A stretch of 48,930 nt of DNA. Source: Chloroflexota bacterium (lineage in GTDB: Bacteria > Chloroflexota > Dormibacteria > Dormibacterales > Dormibacteraceae). The stretch is taken from NCBI GenBank assembly GCA_005880945.1, contig VBIU01000062.1, positions 1-48,930 of the forward strand. Reading direction: 5' to 3'. The notes under the pieces are model-generated. The model made no database searches. It was not told the DNA's origin and was given only the letters and a program-made list of their open reading frames with translations. Shown one piece after another: positions 3,630-11,229 of this stretch (positions within the stretch are counted from its first letter, which is position 1; each line of letters starts with the position of its first letter). The position numbers and the translations under genes are program-made.

Positions 3630-4196
3630 TTGCAAAGTTTGATCAGTTCGAGGGAAGTGGCCAGTCGTCTGGGCGTCAGCCAGGCGACTGTTCTTCGTGC
3701 CGTGGTACGCGGCGCGCTGGCGGCCGCCGAAACCACGCCGGGCGGGCACCGCCGCTTCCGTATCGAGGACGTCGACGCCATGGCCGGAGCACCCATTCCC
3801 ACCATGCGCCGCATCCCCAGGCTGATCAGCACCGGAGCGGCGGCGCGGCTGCTCGGCCTGAGCCAGCACACGGTGATCAGGGCCTGCAAGGAAGGGCGCC
3901 TCGAGCCCGACGAGGTCACGCCGGGCGGCCACCGCCGATTCTCCGAGGACCGAATCCGCCGGCTGGCACCACATGCGGGCGAGCTCGTCGGCACCGCCGG
4001 CGCAGCTCGCGTCCTTGGGCTGACGGTTGCCAAGCTGCTGCGCGCGGTTCAATGCGGCGCCGTTAGTCCGGCGGCTGTCACTCCCGGCGGGCATCGGAGG
4101 TTTGCGACTGCGGACCTCTCGTCCAGCTTGCTTCAGTCTGAAGGCACAGGGAGCCACCAAGACGCCGGTGGTTGGGCTGGTGATGGCGCCCGGTAA
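3630..4196 (+). CDS. Regulator with three tandem MerR/BldC-type HTH units
   Basis: Predicted DNA-binding protein of 188 aa made almost entirely of three repeats of a MerR/excisionase-like winged helix. Each has an alanine-rich HTH (SREVASRLGVSQATVLRAV; GAAARLLGLSQHTVIRA; GAARVLGLTVAKLLRAV), then a wing ending in TPGGHRRF. The three TPGGHRRF copies are identical and lie about 60 residues apart. Single-unit relatives such as BldC bind direct repeats cooperatively; a covalent three-unit form is unusual. The start is TTG at 3630; an in-frame stop at 3600-3602 limits extension, and no good Shine-Dalgarno is visible. The stop overlaps the next gene's start by 14 bp, which suggests it controls or is coupled to the glycosyltransferase-exosortase operon. 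The family is secure; the target is inferred. Confidence 0.8.
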   Translation: MQSLISSREVASRLGVSQATVLRAVVRGALAAAETTPGGHRRFRIEDVDAMAGAPIPTMRRIPRLISTGAAARLLGLSQHTVIRACKEGRLEPDEVTPGGHRRFSEDRIRRLAPHAGELVGTAGAARVLGLTVAKLLRAVQCGAVSPAAVTPGGHRRFATADLSSSLLQSEGTGSHQDAGGWAGDGAR

Positions 4197-6765
4197 CGGC
4201 TCATCCGATGAGGGCGATCCTTTACACAGGACCGGAATCGTCCTCGGCCTGGCCCTGCTGCTCATCTCCGCCGGCGTCGCCCTTCTCGCGCTGGCGCTGT
4301 TTTCAGAGCTGACCCGTTACGGGGTGGCGGCAGTCTCGATGCTCGGGGGCCTGATCCTCATCGGTTCCGAGATCGTGAGGCTCCGGTCGCGACCTGACCG
4401 CGGTCAGCTGCTGTGGACAGCGCTTCTCGACGGAATCCTTCTGGCCGGGGTCGTGCTGGCGATCACGCCATTCGCGTCCCTTACCAAGGGTTTCGTCGAC
4501 CTCATAGTGCAGTCGAAGATCCAGAGCGGCGCCGACTGGCTGGCGTACGGATTTGCGTTCACGGGCCTGTTCCTGGGAGCTCTGTTTTTCGCCTACGCGG
4601 TCAAGTACTACCTGAGCACTGTGATCGTGCTCATCACGTCGCTCGCCACAGGTCGCACCGGCAACGGACACGTTGGAAACGGCCATAGCGCCAACGGTGG
4701 GCTCAACCGGATCGGCAGCGGCAATGGCAACGGGTATCACATCGATCTCGGGTACCACCCGTTCGTGTCGGTTCACGTCGCCGCCTACAACGAAAGGCGT
4801 GTGATCGAGCGGCTGCTCACGGCGCTCTCCCAGCTCGAGTACCCCGAATACGAGGTCATCGTCGTCGATGACTCGACTGACGATTCAAAGCTCATCCTCG
4901 AACGCTGGGCGAACGCCCCGGGATTCAAGATCCTCCATCGCACCAGCCGTCAGGGCTACAAGGGGGGAGCGCTGCGAGAGGCGCTCAAGGTCATGGATCC
5001 GCGCACCGAGTACGTGGTCGTCTTCGACGCCGACTCGGTGCCGTTCTCGGATTCGATCGACCGTTTTCTGCCGCACTTCTACCACGAGAAAGGAAACGGC
5101 CGCGGCGGCAATGGCAATGCCGGCCAGCCTGGCGAGCAGCCGATCAAGCGCCGCGAGGAAGTCGCCGCGGTGCAGAGCTATCAATGGCACGTTCTGAACA
5201 AGTCCGAAAGCTGGCTGACGGAGGCGGTGCGGGCCGAGTACGCCGGCAGCTACATGGTCGAGCGCCCGTTCCAGGACGCGGTCGGCTCGCTGAAGATGGT
5301 CGCGGGGACCGCTTACATGATCCGCGCGGACCTTCTCCGCGAGGTCGGCTGGGGAACCAGCATCACCGAGGACTGGGAGCTCACTCTCAAGCTTTATTCG
5401 CGCGGCTACAAGGTCGCCTACACGCCATGGGCCGAGACGCCGGCCGAATGCGTCAGCACTTTCTCGAGGTTGGCGCGGCAGCGGATGCGCTGGGCGGAAG
5501 GGCACACGCACAACGTCCGCAAATGGTTCTGGCCGATCATGCTTTCGCCCGCCGTCACGCCGCTCGAAAAGCTGGAGTTCCTCTTCGACACCACCTACTA
5601 CCTTCAGGCCGGGCTCTTCGTCATCGGCACCTTGAGCTGGCTGGCGTCCGAGGTCATCTTCCACACCCACGTGCCGGGTTGGACCGCCACCCTCGGCTGG
5701 GCCCTTCTGTTCTCCAACATCCTGGCCCTGCCGCTGATGAACCTCGGCGGTCTGATCCTCGAGGAAGCGCCGCCACGAGACCTGCAGGGAGTGCTGGGGG
5801 CGGTGGTGCTTTCCTTTGCGCTCGTCCCGTTCCAGGGCTGGGCGGCGTTGAAAGGCCTGCTCAGCAGGGAGGAGGGCCCTTGGTTCCGCACGCCGAAGAC
5901 CGGGCGCATCACCGACGAGGTCCATCACCTCCGCCGCCTCCACCTGCTGCGGCGCTGGCTGCTCGGCCATCGCACAGCGGTGGGCGAGGGACGCTCCGGC
6001 AGCGCGCGGCCGTTCTCATCCGGGCCACCCACCGCACACATCCGCGCGTCCCGGCCCATCGATCCTCATCGCCGGCTGGGCTGGCTCGTGGTCGGGGCCA
6101 TCGTGCTGGCGGTCGGCGCATTGGTGTGGGGATCGGCGAGCGTGCCGGTAGTCCAGTCGGCAGGCAACCCGCTCTACCTGCATGGCACAGGCGTCTCGCC
6201 GGGCTGCACGCCATCCACGATGGACCAGGTGGTCGGCACTCGGGCCACCGCGTGCTCGGTCTCGGCCAGCGGAACGACGTCCATCTTCGGGTTCACGAAC
6301 CTGCCTTCGCAGACAGTCAGCGCCGGAGTGTGGTCTTTCACCATGTACTGGACGGGCGGTTCTGGCACGACGAAAGACACAGTGACCGTCACCGCGGGGG
6401 CAGTCGTCGGGGCGAGCTGCGCGGGCTTCGTGGCGACGATACCCAGCGTCGGCACATGGACCACCACGTTCGGCAGCAATGGGGTCAACACGACGAGCCC
6501 GTTCACAGTCAGCACCAGCGCGAGCCAGTTGCCTCTGGTGATTCCTCCGGGTGGCTCCCTGTGCTTGAGCGTGGCGCTCACCCACGGGACTGGGGGCGCA
6601 ACCTCGATGACCTATGACGGCATCGCGGGAGTCGCCGACACCCAGGTGATTCCTCCATCAACGGTGGTTCCGGAGTCGCTCCTGGGATTCATCGGCCTTG
6701 CGGTGGCGATTCCCGCGATAACCGGACGAAGGCGTTGGTTGTCGTTCTTCAAGGTGCGGGCATGA
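4183..6765 (+). CDS. Processive GT2 glycosyltransferase with exported C-terminal domain and PEP-CTERM-like tail
   Basis: Membrane glycosyltransferase of the cellulose-synthase/NodC type, 860 aa from ATG 4183 (GTG 4180 is an alternative). About four TM segments come first. The catalytic domain has VAAYNERR (about 197), VVDDSTDD, DADS (about 281, the DxD metal site), the TED acceptor motif (about 394) and RQRMRW (about 432, the QxxRW motif of processive enzymes). Three TM segments follow, then another TM (about 632-652) and a Ser/Thr/Gly-rich beta-type domain of about 170 residues. The end is a sorting-signal-like tail: VPESLLGF (about 829), a hydrophobic helix, GRRR and a short basic end. That tripartite tail is what exosortases recognise, and an exosortase gene overlaps by 4 bp. 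Two Gly/Asn-rich low-complexity inserts flank and interrupt the catalytic domain. GT2 near exosortase XrtG is known; fusion of enzyme and sorting signal is the oddity. Substrate sugar unknown. Confidence 0.88.
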   Translation: MAPGNGSSDEGDPLHRTGIVLGLALLLISAGVALLALALFSELTRYGVAAVSMLGGLILIGSEIVRLRSRPDRGQLLWTALLDGILLAGVVLAITPFASLTKGFVDLIVQSKIQSGADWLAYGFAFTGLFLGALFFAYAVKYYLSTVIVLITSLATGRTGNGHVGNGHSANGGLNRIGSGNGNGYHIDLGYHPFVSVHVAAYNERRVIERLLTALSQLEYPEYEVIVVDDSTDDSKLILERWANAPGFKILHRTSRQGYKGGALREALKVMDPRTEYVVVFDADSVPFSDSIDRFLPHFYHEKGNGRGGNGNAGQPGEQPIKRREEVAAVQSYQWHVLNKSESWLTEAVRAEYAGSYMVERPFQDAVGSLKMVAGTAYMIRADLLREVGWGTSITEDWELTLKLYSRGYKVAYTPWAETPAECVSTFSRLARQRMRWAEGHTHNVRKWFWPIMLSPAVTPLEKLEFLFDTTYYLQAGLFVIGTLSWLASEVIFHTHVPGWTATLGWALLFSNILALPLMNLGGLILEEAPPRDLQGVLGAVVLSFALVPFQGWAALKGLLSREEGPWFRTPKTGRITDEVHHLRRLHLLRRWLLGHRTAVGEGRSGSARPFSSGPPTAHIRASRPIDPHRRLGWLVVGAIVLAVGALVWGSASVPVVQSAGNPLYLHGTGVSPGCTPSTMDQVVGTRATACSVSASGTTSIFGFTNLPSQTVSAGVWSFTMYWTGGSGTTKDTVTVTAGAVVGASCAGFVATIPSVGTWTTTFGSNGVNTTSPFTVSTSASQLPLVIPPGGSLCLSVALTHGTGGATSMTYDGIAGVADTQVIPPSTVVPESLLGFIGLAVAIPAITGRRRWLSFFKVRA

Positions 6766-7346
6766 CGCGACACGACCGCGATGCAATGAACATGACCCTC
6801 GTCGCGATCACGTGCGCGCTGCTGATGCTGCTGCCGTTGGTCACGACCTTCGACGACCTGCTCACCTCGTGGGCGCTCCAGCTTGGCGCGAACAACCCGT
6901 TGCAGGGCATCGTGCCGATCGAGGCGCGCATGGTGGTGGGCCTTCTCGGTCTCGTCGGCATCCACGCCGCGGCCTCCGGCAGCCACATCGTGATCTGGGA
7001 CGCCGCCGGCTCGATGCACACGCTATTCATCTCCTGGAACTGCATCGGCTGGCAGAGCCTCGTGCTTCTCGGCATCAGCCTTTTCTCTGGCTTGCGCGGC
7101 CGGCAATCGCTGGAGGCGCGAGTTCAGGTTGTGCTGATTGGGGTTGCCGGCACCATGCTTCTGAACCTGATGCGCGTGGCGGCGGTGGCGGCGATCGCGG
7201 CTACCTTCGGTCAGATCCCCGCCCTGATCTTTCACGACTACGGCGGCACGATCCTCGTCGTGTGCTGGCTCTTCGCCTTCTGGATCTTCGTCCAGCGATG
7301 GATTCTGGTCGCGCCTCCTTCTGACGAGGTCGAGGTGTTCGCATGA
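6762..7346 (+). CDS. Exosortase/archaeosortase-family cysteine protease-transpeptidase
   Basis: Polytopic membrane protein of 194 aa with the exosortase catalytic set: Cys94 in SWNCIGWQS, Arg138 in NLMRVA and His158 in FHDYGG, each at a membrane boundary. Family members cut proteins with PEP-CTERM-type tails at the membrane and may transfer them to a carrier. I chose ATG 6762, which overlaps the glycosyltransferase stop in ATGA, over an upstream start at 6735. The next gene also overlaps by ATGA, so translation is coupled on both sides. The only tail resembling a substrate in this window is the C-terminus of the preceding glycosyltransferase. It is shorter than proteobacterial EpsH-type exosortases and resembles the compact XrtG/archaeosortase type; I cannot assign the subclass from sequence alone. 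Confidence 0.87.
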   Translation: MTRHDRDAMNMTLVAITCALLMLLPLVTTFDDLLTSWALQLGANNPLQGIVPIEARMVVGLLGLVGIHAAASGSHIVIWDAAGSMHTLFISWNCIGWQSLVLLGISLFSGLRGRQSLEARVQVVLIGVAGTMLLNLMRVAAVAAIAATFGQIPALIFHDYGGTILVVCWLFAFWIFVQRWILVAPPSDEVEVFA

Positions 7347-9571
7347 AGCGGTGGATCCGGCTCGGGCTGCAGACCGTCTTCGGTGTGTTCCTGCTGTGGC
7401 TCTGGCTACGCACGGTTTCGCTGCCGGAGGTCGCCAGCCACGCGCGCGTCCAGAGCTGGCCCGCGGTGGTTCTCATGGTCTGCCTGTTTCTGGTCACGGC
7501 TTTGATCAGGGCCCGGCGCTGGCTGCTGCTGCTGCGTCCTCTGGCGCCGGTGGGGATGGTGCGGGCGTTCGCGATGAACGCCGCGGGAGGAATCCTGAAC
7601 TACGTCGTCCCGATTCGCACCGGCGATGCGGCACGCGCGTGGTGGCTTTGGCGGCGGCATCGCGTGCCGGCCGGCTCCGCGCTGGCGACCATCGTCATCG
7701 ACAAGGCATGCGACCTGGCCGGCGTCGCCCTCGTTCTGGCCGTTCTCGAGATCGTGGCCGCCACCGGCGCCGTGAGCGCCCCGCGAGGACTCCTCGGGGC
7801 GGCCGCGCTCGCGGTCGCGCTGCTGGCGGCTGTCCTGGGGACCGCCCTGGCCGGGCCGAGGATCGCGCGCTCTTCCCTCGCGCGCCGCCTGCTCCCAGCG
7901 GGGTTTGCCGCGGCGCTGGCCGGCCAGGCCTTCGCGTTTCGCGCGGGCGCGCGCGGCCTGTGGACCCCGGCGCTGGCCGGACGCCTTGCGGCCCTGACGG
8001 CGCTGGCGCTGGTCATCGACGCCTTCAACTTCACTCTGCTCTTCGCGGCGGTCGGCGTCGATGTGCCCGTCTTGAAGGCGATGGCGGCGTACCCGGCGCT
8101 GCTGCTGAGCTTTGCGATTCCGGCCGGCCCCGGATACGTCGGCAACCTGGAGGTGGCCGGCGCTTTGGTCCTGGGCGGTGGGCTGGGGCTTGCGGCGCCG
8201 GTGGCGGCAGGGGCGATAGTGCTCTACCACGCGATCACGGCGGGCTTTGCTCTCGTGATCGGTCTGCTCGGCTTTCTGCTCGTCGGCGGCAGGCGTCGGC
8301 TGCAGGCCGGCGGCCCGCGCCGCATCGCGGTCTTCCACTGCGGCTTCACCTATTCCGGCGGAGGCGAGCGCATCGTGATCGAAGAGGTGCTGGGGCTGCG
8401 GCGCCGTGGCTTCTCGGTCGAGTGCTACGCGCCGACGGTTGACGCGTCGCGCTGCTATCCCGACCTGATCGGAGAGGTCCGGGTGCGCACCTTCCTGCCC
8501 CAGCTTCCGCGTTGGTTCCCGTTCCGCGAAGCGATGCAGATGGCCGCGGCTTCTCTCCTCATGCCGTTGTACGCATGGCGCTTTCGAGGCGTCGACGCCA
8601 TCGTCGGCTGCAACCAGCCCAGCGCCTGGATCGCTTGGTGGGCCGCCCGCCTGATCGACGTCCCGTATGTCGTCTACCTGAATCAGCCGAACCGGTTGGT
8701 CTACCCGCGGAGCATCGACCGCGAGACGGGCTGGGTGGCGAACGCGGACTATCGTCTGCTCGCCGCGATAGTTCTGCGAGCGACGAAGTTCGTCGCGTGG
8801 GCGGACCGGCGATCGGTGCAGGAGGCGGACCAGCTGCTCGTCAACGGCGACTACATCGGCGACATCATCCGCGGCATCTACCGGCGAGATGCGATCGATT
8901 GCCCAGCCGGCTGTCACGTCGCCGCATCGGGATTTCCTCTGCCGGAGCAAGCGCGTTTCTCAGGCGGCCTGACCATCAACGGCTACCCGATCAGGCGGCC
9001 TTATGTGCTGCTCACCAACCGCCACTACCCGCAGAAGAGGTTCGACCTCGCGATCCGCGCCATCCAGGAGGTGCGCAAGCGCCATCCCAAGGCCCAGCTT
9101 GTGATCCCGGGCCCTTCAACCTCTCACACCGCTGCTCTCCAGGCGTTGACGTCCGAGCTGAAGCTCACCGACGGGGTGCTCTTCCTCGGCGCGATAACCG
9201 AAGAGGAGCTGAGTCGTCTATACGAGGGCGCCGCCGTCTACGTCTATCCAGCGCCCGAAGAGGATTTCGGCATGGGGGTCATCGAATCGATGGCCAGGGG
9301 AGTGCCAGTGGTGGCGTGGAACCAGGCGGGTCCCACAGTGACAGTGGCGCCGGGGACAGGCCATCTCGCCGAGCCGCTCGAGGTCGACGACTATGCCGCG
9401 GGCATCGCCTCGCTGCTCGACGACCCACACGCCAACCAGGCCACCGGAGCGCGAGCCGTTGACTGGGCGCGCCGTTTCGACTGGGAGAGGCACATCGACA
9501 CGCTCGAGCATTCGATACTCGAAGTTGCCCGCTCGCACGAGCAGGTGGCGGCGGCAGCAGCCACGGCATGA
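7343..9571 (+). CDS. Flippase-like (LPG_synthase_TM/UPF0104) domain fused to GT4 glycosyltransferase
   Basis: A 742-aa fusion. Residues about 1-320 are a multi-TM domain of the lysylphosphatidylglycerol-synthase-TM/AglD-like family; the typical signature GGILNYVVPIRTGDAARAWW and the PAGPGYVGNLE stretch are visible. Residues about 325-742 form a GT-B, GT4-type glycosyltransferase: YSGGGERIVIEE near its start, NRHYPQKRFDLAI mid-domain and EDFGMGVIESMARGVPVVAW, the E-x7-E nucleotide-sugar motif. It would act at the inner face of the membrane on a lipid-linked sugar, perhaps coupling glycosylation to translocation; that coupling is inference. It starts at ATG 7343, overlapping the exosortase stop by 4 bp. 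Both halves are also known as separate proteins. No frame break joins them, so the fusion looks genuine. Confidence 0.87.
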   Translation: MKRWIRLGLQTVFGVFLLWLWLRTVSLPEVASHARVQSWPAVVLMVCLFLVTALIRARRWLLLLRPLAPVGMVRAFAMNAAGGILNYVVPIRTGDAARAWWLWRRHRVPAGSALATIVIDKACDLAGVALVLAVLEIVAATGAVSAPRGLLGAAALAVALLAAVLGTALAGPRIARSSLARRLLPAGFAAALAGQAFAFRAGARGLWTPALAGRLAALTALALVIDAFNFTLLFAAVGVDVPVLKAMAAYPALLLSFAIPAGPGYVGNLEVAGALVLGGGLGLAAPVAAGAIVLYHAITAGFALVIGLLGFLLVGGRRRLQAGGPRRIAVFHCGFTYSGGGERIVIEEVLGLRRRGFSVECYAPTVDASRCYPDLIGEVRVRTFLPQLPRWFPFREAMQMAAASLLMPLYAWRFRGVDAIVGCNQPSAWIAWWAARLIDVPYVVYLNQPNRLVYPRSIDRETGWVANADYRLLAAIVLRATKFVAWADRRSVQEADQLLVNGDYIGDIIRGIYRRDAIDCPAGCHVAASGFPLPEQARFSGGLTINGYPIRRPYVLLTNRHYPQKRFDLAIRAIQEVRKRHPKAQLVIPGPSTSHTAALQALTSELKLTDGVLFLGAITEEELSRLYEGAAVYVYPAPEEDFGMGVIESMARGVPVVAWNQAGPTVTVAPGTGHLAEPLEVDDYAAGIASLLDDPHANQATGARAVDWARRFDWERHIDTLEHSILEVARSHEQVAAAAATA

Positions 9572-11229
9572 AGCTCCTTCCCAGGATCCTCGCCGGCGAG
9601 GACGAGGAGGAAGGACCGCCGGAGCCGGAACCTGAGGCCGCCGTTGAGTCGCATGGAGGGCAGAGCGCCCTGCATTGGGGCTGGACGCTGGCGCTGGCCG
9701 GTGGCGCAGCCCTTCCGCGTCTTCTATATATGTTCGTCCTGACCGATCCCGAGAATCCGGGGATCCGCCGGTACGGCGACGTCTGGCATCACTGGCAGAT
9801 CGCCTACCTGACCAAGGAGATTGGGCTGAGTGCGCCCGGCGGTCCTCGACTGTGGGACCTCAAGGGCCTCGACTATTTCTGGGGCGTGCTGCACCCGCTT
9901 CTGATGGTCGGGCTTTTCGATCTGACCGGGTCGATCGACATCGTGCTGAACCGCCTCGTGAGCGCGGCCTTCGGCGTTGTCGTGGTGGTCCTCCTGTTCC
10001 ATATCTGCCGGCGCTTCTGGGGAACGCACGTTGCTGTGGGCGCTGCGCTCATCGCGATCCTGCTGCCGACCAGCGTCATGAACGACGCGTCCGGAATGCT
10101 CGAGCCGCTGGGGGTTGCCCTCCTGCTCGCCGGCGTGTGGGCCTGGCCGCGCAGGGGAGGCTTTTGGGCCGGGCTGGCTTTCGGGGTCGCCACGATGGCG
10201 CGGGCCGAAGCGTGGATCTTCAGCCTCGGCATGGTCGTGGCCGCTCACCTGCGCCGTGAGGGGTGGCAGCAGCGCCTCCCACTGCTCGCCGGCTTCGTGG
10301 CCGTGATGCTCGTTTACATGAAGGTCTTGCAGGACCAGACCGGAAACGCCATCTATCCCCTGTGGTGGAACTTCTTCGCCAACGCAGTCGGCAAATGGGA
10401 ATTTGCGCCGGTCAGCGCATCGCAGGCAAGCGTTCGTCCTGTGCTCGGAGCATTGCTAGCTGTCGCCGCTATCGGGCTTGCCTGGGCCCTCATCACCCGG
10501 CCGCCCTCATACATGCTCCTAACCTTCGGGTTCGGTTACTGGGTGTTTGTCGCGGGCATGCTCGGCTTCACCTCGTACCTCGCGAGCTGGGTTTGGTGGA
10601 TGCCGATCACACGCGTCTTTGCCTTTCCTTATGTCTTTGCCGGCGTGCTGCTGGCGGTGGCGCTGCTGTGGTGGGCGCCGAGGAGGCTCGGTAATCGGAT
10701 ATTGCCCCTCGCATGGACGGCAGTCGGTGCAACCCTGGTGGTCACGCAGGTGGCATGGGTTCCCATCGCGCAGGTCTTCGGGCCCTCCGAGGCCGAATGG
10801 CACGTGGTACAGGCGGAGAGCATCCAGCTCGGAGCGTGGTACAACCAGGCTCCCTATGCCGGCCATGCGCTCGCGGTGCCGCCGGAACGGCCCGACATCA
10901 CCTATGGCCTTGCCCGCTTCGGTGGCGTCGAGGGCAAGCATCTCGTGAGCGAGATGTATGACCCGTTCGCCTATCTGCCATCGGGCTATCGCTACGAGGA
11001 TCACGAGGCCGCTGTCACCACCCTCGTGCAGTGCTGGCTCGGCGACACCGACACCAGGCTGATCGCAATACCCCGGAACGACCCCAACTACGCCCTGCTT
11101 CAGCAGCTGAACCCGAGCTGGTTCGTGCGTTTGGGAACCATGGATGAGGCTGGTTGGACGGTGAATGGCGTATCCGTACCGCCGCTGACCGCGGCAGAGT
11201 GCAAGGCAGCTCGATCGGCGACCCAATAA
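9568..11229 (+). CDS. GT-C type membrane glycosyltransferase-like protein
   Basis: Polytopic membrane protein (553 aa) with an acidic cytoplasmic N-terminus (GEDEEEGPPEPEPE) and roughly ten to twelve hydrophobic segments. The first periplasmic loop has YGDVWHHWQIA, placed like the catalytic Asp/Glu of GT39/ArnT-type enzymes that use polyprenyl-phosphate sugars. A soluble C-terminal part of about 140 residues follows (from about 410). Its ATG overlaps the preceding stop in ATGA, so it belongs to the same translational unit. A role in transferring sugar to a lipid or protein outside the membrane is inferred from fold and context. No close subfamily is recognised. Confidence 0.72.
   Translation: MKLLPRILAGEDEEEGPPEPEPEAAVESHGGQSALHWGWTLALAGGAALPRLLYMFVLTDPENPGIRRYGDVWHHWQIAYLTKEIGLSAPGGPRLWDLKGLDYFWGVLHPLLMVGLFDLTGSIDIVLNRLVSAAFGVVVVVLLFHICRRFWGTHVAVGAALIAILLPTSVMNDASGMLEPLGVALLLAGVWAWPRRGGFWAGLAFGVATMARAEAWIFSLGMVVAAHLRREGWQQRLPLLAGFVAVMLVYMKVLQDQTGNAIYPLWWNFFANAVGKWEFAPVSASQASVRPVLGALLAVAAIGLAWALITRPPSYMLLTFGFGYWVFVAGMLGFTSYLASWVWWMPITRVFAFPYVFAGVLLAVALLWWAPRRLGNRILPLAWTAVGATLVVTQVAWVPIAQVFGPSEAEWHVVQAESIQLGAWYNQAPYAGHALAVPPERPDITYGLARFGGVEGKHLVSEMYDPFAYLPSGYRYEDHEAAVTTLVQCWLGDTDTRLIAIPRNDPNYALLQQLNPSWFVRLGTMDEAGWTVNGVSVPPLTAAECKAARSATQ

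Follow-up and report, generated by a model that had tools for sequence, protein, structure and literature searches.

A glycosyltransferase joined in one reading frame to a candidate exosortase substrate: a probable polyprotein in Dormibacterota and other lineages

In a 48,930-nucleotide stretch of DNA from a Chloroflexota bacterium of the family Dormibacteraceae (positions 1 to 48,930 of contig VBIU01000062.1, assembly GCA_005880945.1; hereafter the window), a single open reading frame (ORF) joins a family 2 glycosyltransferase (GT2) to a complete candidate substrate of the exosortase encoded by the next gene. The ORF is best read as a polyprotein, a reading to which we assign a probability of roughly three in four. 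Signal peptidase I would separate the synthase from the substrate, and the exosortase would process the C-terminal tail of the latter. The relevant features are:

4183–6765, + strand: glycosyltransferase (GT)–substrate fusion ORF, 860 amino acids, no internal stop; stop codon at 6763–6765
4183–5868, + strand: GT2 module, residues 1–562 (Pfam PF13641, AlphaFold2 (AF2) model with Foldseek, motifs)
5869–6072, + strand: basic cytoplasmic linker, residues 563–630 (composition, low predicted local distance difference test (pLDDT) values, drop in identity to a same-genus homologue)
6073–6159, + strand: putative internal signal peptide RLGWLVVGAIVLAVGALVWGSASVPVVQS/A, residues 631–659 (signal peptidase I cut predicted at the slash, after Ser659; 26 homologous junctions)
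6160–6666, + strand: predicted exported domain, residues 660–828 (composition, Cys columns, AF2, Foldseek)
6667–6762, + strand: putative sorting tail VPESLLGFIGLAVAIPAITGRRRWLSFFKVRA, residues 829–860 (tail alignment A1; profile search of 61 genomes)
6762–7346, + strand: exosortase/archaeosortase family protein, 194 amino acids (TIGR04178; Cys94 at 7041–7043, Arg138 at 7173–7175, His158 at 7233–7235)

The GT2 module consists of N-terminal transmembrane (TM) helices, a cytoplasmic catalytic domain and C-terminal TM helices. It matches the Pfam family Glyco_tranf_2_3 (PF13641; E = 4.8e-24) and carries the motifs DDS229, DAD282, TED395 and QRMRW433, which are invariant or nearly so in an alignment of 23 sequences. 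The best Foldseek match of its AF2 model is BcsA (9b8v; E = 2.6e-17). Both marks of a processive synthase, the DDS/DxD/TED/QxxRW series and a BcsA-like fold, are thus present, and from its sequence the module looks like a BcsA/hyaluronan-synthase-like enzyme with a predicted polysaccharide product. Fold, DxD, TED and QxxRW are common to BcsA, hyaluronan synthase and PgaC, but identity to these enzymes is low and the window protein is additionally fused to an exported exosortase substrate. As an initial annotation had proposed, the GT2 runs without a stop into a TM segment, a Ser/Thr-rich domain and a tail.

The continuous frame recurs in many relatives. A search with the exported domain recovered uninterrupted frames of about 800–900 amino acids beside exosortase relatives; the latter are present in 32 of the 61 related genomes and, across the whole class, in 38 of 110. 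A scan of the collection found loci in Chloroflexi, Candidatus Dormibacterota, Anaerolineae, Dehalococcoidaceae, Bathyarchaeota and Patescibacteria (Gottesman-, Woese-, Curtiss-, Chisholm-, Levy- and Daviesbacteria); its patterns were taken from this exosortase branch, so the counts are not a survey of all exosortases. A GT and a [VIM][PD]E–TM–basic tail share one ORF upstream of the exosortase in 56 of 80 loci (32 Dormibacterota, nine other Chloroflexota, nine Patescibacteria and six Bathyarchaeota). At the others the tail ORF runs off the contig (nine), lacks a GT match (four, one masked and one apparently frame-split) or is absent, often where little upstream sequence is present (11). The initial annotation had named a stop lost through sequencing error as a danger, and some relatives are indeed split or incomplete (L184, and loci at contig ends). 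A lost stop or frameshift joining two genes nevertheless has negligible probability, given the identical continuous layout in 56 loci from separate assemblies and the coding signature through the junction, where GC content at third codon positions stays high across linker and ectodomain (0.82–0.90). These independent open fusions rule out sequencing error as the origin.

The start of the following gene overlaps the stop of the fusion ORF as ATGA, from 6762 (context GGC ATGA CGC). Its product exceeds the TIGR04178 cut-off of 23 with 32.6 bits and contains C94, N135LMR138 (NxxR) and H158DYGG162 (HxxxG), in agreement with the triad put forward for EpsH (PMC1569441). None of the Cys, Asn, Arg and His varies among 25 homologues, and the earlier naming of the gene as an exosortase stands. 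Exosortase_EpsH (PF09721) gave no match in the source genome or for the window protein, and TIGR04178 and self-built profiles were used for that reason. No named exosortase subfamily reaches its cut-off; the best are archaeosortase C (29 bits, cut-off 100) and thaumarchaeosortase (26 bits, cut-off 250), and a search with the exosortase profile found no solved structure. By these profile scores the protein is a divergent short branch of the exosortase/archaeosortase superfamily.

The tail begins at V829 with VPESLLGFIGLAVAIPAITGRRR and comprises a VPE motif, a TM helix and an RRR basic cluster. In the 25 rows of alignment A1 the family motif is [VIM][PD]E, followed by a TM helix and a basic cluster, with PE (nearly) invariant; the tail is therefore shared by GT homologues beside exosortases and has the tripartite layout of PEP-CTERM substrates. 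The PEP-CTERM hidden Markov model (HMM) PF07589 has no match in the window tail, its best score in a relative being 13.4 bits against a cut-off of 20.7, and no NCBIfam sorting-signal domain reaches cut-off for these tails. The earlier label 'PEP-CTERM-like' consequently holds for the layout only. A divergent cassette in G009 (L146 3263–5980 / L070) carries EVDERSLPLAG in place of VPE, beside the most divergent Dormibacterota exosortase, and VDE tails occur likewise in L160, L162 and L163.

Tail and exosortase travel together. Over the 61 genomes, a profile built from A1 gives E < 1e-12 in fusion proteins only (1e-13 to 1e-20); the best non-fusion match has E = 0.004, and the better substrates elsewhere that might have undermined the initial annotation were not found in these genomes. 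The tail is present in 30 of 32 exosortase-positive genomes and in none of 29 negatives. The two positives without it keep mere exosortase remnants of 44 and 76 residues, which suggests joint loss of the whole system. (The remnants lie at G004:C28:121761–121892 (L081) and G035:C13:39121–39348 (L078), in genomes without GT or tail.) The GT subfamily (E < 1e-60) was likewise found in exosortase-positive genomes only, apart from a copy in G016 that a contig end truncates. In most genomes there is one tail per exosortase, and the two adjoin; G060, G002, G029, G026 and G009 have several cassettes. A single target per genome adjoining its enzyme is what has been termed a 'dedicated' sorting system (PMC3237569), and this is the arrangement found here. 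G060 has several GT–substrate or substrate-only ORFs with one exosortase (L071 501–9094, L089 3–1764).

Ectodomain and exosortase also diverge in step (r = 0.92). The partial correlation given GT distance is 0.754, with a permutation p of 5e-4 that is optimistic because the sequences are related. Between the window and a same-genus locus (L065, G001), identity is 81% in the GT, 27% in the ectodomain and 52% in the exosortase, and the drop begins at the linker, as if substrate and exosortase had been swapped together as a cassette. Co-occurrence, co-variation and one-to-one pairing support the view that the fused tail genuinely serves as a substrate signal dedicated to the adjoining exosortase. 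Were the tail instead a plain C-terminal membrane anchor on which the exosortase homologue is inactive, adjacency would reflect co-regulation of envelope genes. The missing match to any named sorting-signal HMM would suit such an anchor, and we infer exosortase action on the VPE tail from family membership and pairing. That explanation is very improbable in view of a co-occurrence without exception bar degraded remnants, the one-to-one pairing, the joint divergence of ectodomain and tail with the exosortase, and the conserved catalytic residues.

How the substrate is joined to the enzyme bears on which of them the exosortase acts upon. The window substrate has no N-terminal signal peptide; the signal-peptide-like segment is internal, at residues 631–659, behind the GT. 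The linker before it contains 13 Arg or Lys in 68 residues and has low pLDDT. Charge is thus distributed as a basic linker, an ectodomain with two Arg or Lys in 169 residues, and a final RRR. When 26 distinct homologous junctions are aligned on the start of the domain, all 26 have Ala at −1, position −3 is Val in 20, Ala in four and Ser in two, and position −5 is Pro in 24. Position −2 is free (entropy 2.95 bits, with Asp, Glu, Arg and Lys included). The figure for −1 is partly built in, since the motif used to select junctions demanded Ala at −1 and +1 ahead of domain starts of the [YF]L[HY] type; this does not apply to the restriction at −3 or the freedom at −2. A free −2 between restricted −1 and −3 positions is typical of a signal peptidase I site, not of a plain anchor. 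AxA-type sites follow the equivalent segment in Anaerolineae, Dehalococcoidia and Patescibacteria. These junctions strongly suggest that the segment preceding the exported domain acts as a cleavable internal signal peptide. In the window the junction reads SVPVVQS/AGNPLYLHG, and the predicted mature N-terminus of the exported domain, following a cut after Ser659, begins AGNPLYLHGTGVSPGCTPSTMDQVVGTR at A660.

Relatives in Anaerolineae string such modules together through tail–RKRK–signal-peptide hairpins, and a single ORF may hold as many as four exported domains. At L147 (JAUWHR010000064.1) a single ORF of 1963 amino acids contains a GT and three signal-peptide/ectodomain/tail modules, and an exosortase follows. 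The tail of the first hairpin, MPGVRLPLL...NKRR, runs directly into a signal peptide ending VLSVSA/AP; in the second, VVPEWVAIF...QRKK leads into SVPQVEA/AP, and the final tail is ITVPENALIL...KRKK. A phylum search with the tail–signal-peptide region of L147 returned mainly fibronectin-type-III matches, which were set aside. Searching the genome of L145 brought up a replicate of this layout on the Anaerolineaceae chromosome CP070708 (G455): an ORF of 3539 amino acids (L231 1883–12502) with a receiver-like response-regulator domain in front, a GT, and four ectodomains joined by three tail/signal-peptide hairpins. Additional pieces lie at L232 and L233, and the chromosome has a single exosortase. 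The module also occurs apart from the GT. Three Bathyarchaeota loci (L177 4536–5960, L173 3892–5316, L170 4536–5924) encode an exosortase with a C-terminal substrate module and its own PE-type tail, placed between the GT–substrate fusion and a second exosortase. L089 901–1764 encodes a substrate that lacks a GT but has a signal peptide and a tail of its own, along with a CxxC-containing cytoplasmic N-terminus.

These arrangements bear on the picture drawn in the initial annotation, in which a sorting signal fused to the GT meant that the enzyme itself is cut or anchored by its neighbour. The dedicated tail stands. The GT, however, is probably not cut or anchored by the exosortase, because the junction looks like a cleavable signal peptide; given the AxA junction and the multi-module relatives, what the exosortase acts on is likely the exported domain once separated from the enzyme. 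The earlier picture would require a signal anchor that is not cut, with the exported domain remaining part of the GT as a glycan-guiding accessory, and the exosortase would trim the tail or link the fused enzyme to an envelope acceptor. A strictly kept fusion would fit this, as would the resemblance of the ectodomain (described below) to carbohydrate-binding modules, which suits a fixed accessory domain. We nevertheless consider it unlikely. Conservation at −1 and −3, freedom at −2 and the Pro at −5 together form a cut-site pattern, and the multi-module ORFs, the exosortase–substrate fusions and the GT-less substrate ORF indicate that the module need not stay with the GT.

Several points weigh against the polyprotein reading and in part favour an uncut anchor. 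Both cuts, the acceptor and the role are things that we infer, and catalysis on the tail motif, which no named sorting-signal model recognizes, is deduced from the enzyme family. The window has Ser at −1, which is allowed but is not the Ala of the family, and the Bathyarchaeota junctions show no clear AxA site. All genomes used are metagenome-assembled genomes or other assemblies, and the CP070708 record, source of the largest polyprotein, is partly masked.

The hairpins of the Anaerolineae relatives support a polyprotein, and on that reading events might proceed as follows. (i) The N-terminal GT2 synthase would remain in the membrane. (ii) The internal signal peptide would open a second translocation event during synthesis. 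(iii) Signal peptidase I would cut after residue 659, freeing the exported domain from the GT. (iv) The adjoining dedicated exosortase would recognize the VPE tail and remove or exchange it. (v) The domain would thereby be released, or transferred to an envelope acceptor such as a lipid or glycan. Because both are part of a single chain, enzyme and surface protein would be made 1:1 at one membrane site. The evidence leans, on balance, towards a wider prokaryotic polyprotein class that crosses domains: fused chains would comprise a glycan synthase, between one and at least four surface proteins and, among certain archaea, an exosortase as well. Signal peptidase I and a dedicated exosortase would cut them at hairpin junctions on the outer face of the membrane, coupling glycan synthesis 1:1 to delivery of its surface partner.

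The exported domain itself is 31% Ser and Thr, with two Arg or Lys and four Cys, all four of which are present in 18 of 18 close homologues by alignment column counts. Its AF2 model (mean pLDDT 88.8 for ectodomain and tail) is a jelly-roll beta-sandwich. The best Foldseek matches in the Protein Data Bank are to the C-terminal domain of CocE, from cocaine esterase-type hydrolases (E = 2e-6, TM score 0.53); a CBM6 module matches more weakly (3.4e-3). Most plausibly, though with less than even odds, the domain is a carbohydrate-binding-module-like surface protein that may hold or organize the glycan of its own locus. On this speculative reading, the locus as a whole would make a surface glycan together with such a protein. 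Downstream, two membrane-associated glycosyltransferase genes belong to neighbour cluster c0, conserved in related loci; a third gene lies upstream and overlaps the GT start:

3630–4196, + strand: protein with three HTH_17/excisionase-like repeats (Pfam HTH_17, 2.7e-20, three stretches)
7343–9571, + strand: LPG_synthase_TM (flippase-like) domain fused to a GT4 glycosyltransferase (Pfam PF03706, 4.2e-30; PF00534, 6.2e-28)
9568–11229, + strand: PMT_2-type (GT-C) membrane glycosyltransferase (Pfam PF13231, 8.7e-6)

The PMT_2-type enzyme possibly O-glycosylates the exported domain, and the upstream protein is a possible regulator. Regulator-like parts ahead of or fused to the GT N-terminus recur: besides the window gene at 3630–4196, they include in-frame helix-turn-helix-like repeats (L070 3377–6094), a coiled coil (L071 5873–9094) and a receiver domain (L231 1883–2400).

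Separate GT genes in the vicinity of exosortases are already known. In the XrtG locus of Firmicutes, with its TIGR03111 GT, and in XrtP with NF053846, a GT2 gene adjoins an exosortase-family gene, as here, but those GTs are about 440 amino acids long and have neither the exported domain nor the tail that the window GT carries. The window GT scores 28.2 bits against TIGR03111 (cut-off 363.95) and 46 against NF053846 (cut-off 520), so its assignment as an XrtG-type enzyme was dropped; the XrtG model does not match the window exosortase. A PTPS_related membrane protein near the relative L162 (25.9 bits, just under the 26.4 cut-off) is also part of the XrtG/XrtP likeness. The PEF- and PEFG-type tails of archaeosortase C and thaumarchaeosortase systems resemble the IPEYG and IPELA-like tails, but their substrates are known as separate proteins, unlike the fusion here. 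Viral polyproteins with TM–signal hairpins cut by signal peptidase offer an analogy, in that tandem exported domains lie between anchor/signal helical hairpins; they are unrelated to this system, in which the second cutter would be an exosortase. With the exosortase/PEP-CTERM system (PMC1569441) the locus has in common a hydrophobic Cys/NxxR/HxxxG enzyme, a tripartite tail on exported proteins and a link to polysaccharide genes. It differs in a [VIM][PD]E motif that lacks the second Pro and lies outside the PEP-CTERM HMM, in having one dedicated substrate, and in a signal peptide that is internal, behind the GT. About 97% of PEP-CTERM proteins were estimated to carry a predicted signal peptide (PMC1569441), described as always N-terminal (PMC3237569). 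A search of one paper collection found no paper on exosortases with polyproteins or with Patescibacteria, and no description of an internal-signal-peptide polyprotein layout for an exosortase substrate; the 2012 exosortase/archaeosortase survey was outside this comparison.

Comparative genomics underlies much of the current view of how the widespread exosortases cut and which acceptors they use. An enzyme and a single substrate paired by fusion and adjacency provide a minimal system for studying exosortase cutting and attachment. Should the cuts prove real, bacteria and archaea would possess polyproteins with alternating signal peptidase and exosortase sites, a logic best known from viruses. 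If the reading is true, polysaccharide synthesis would be coupled directly to a surface protein in uncultured soil Dormibacterota, Anaerolineae, Patescibacteria and Bathyarchaeota.

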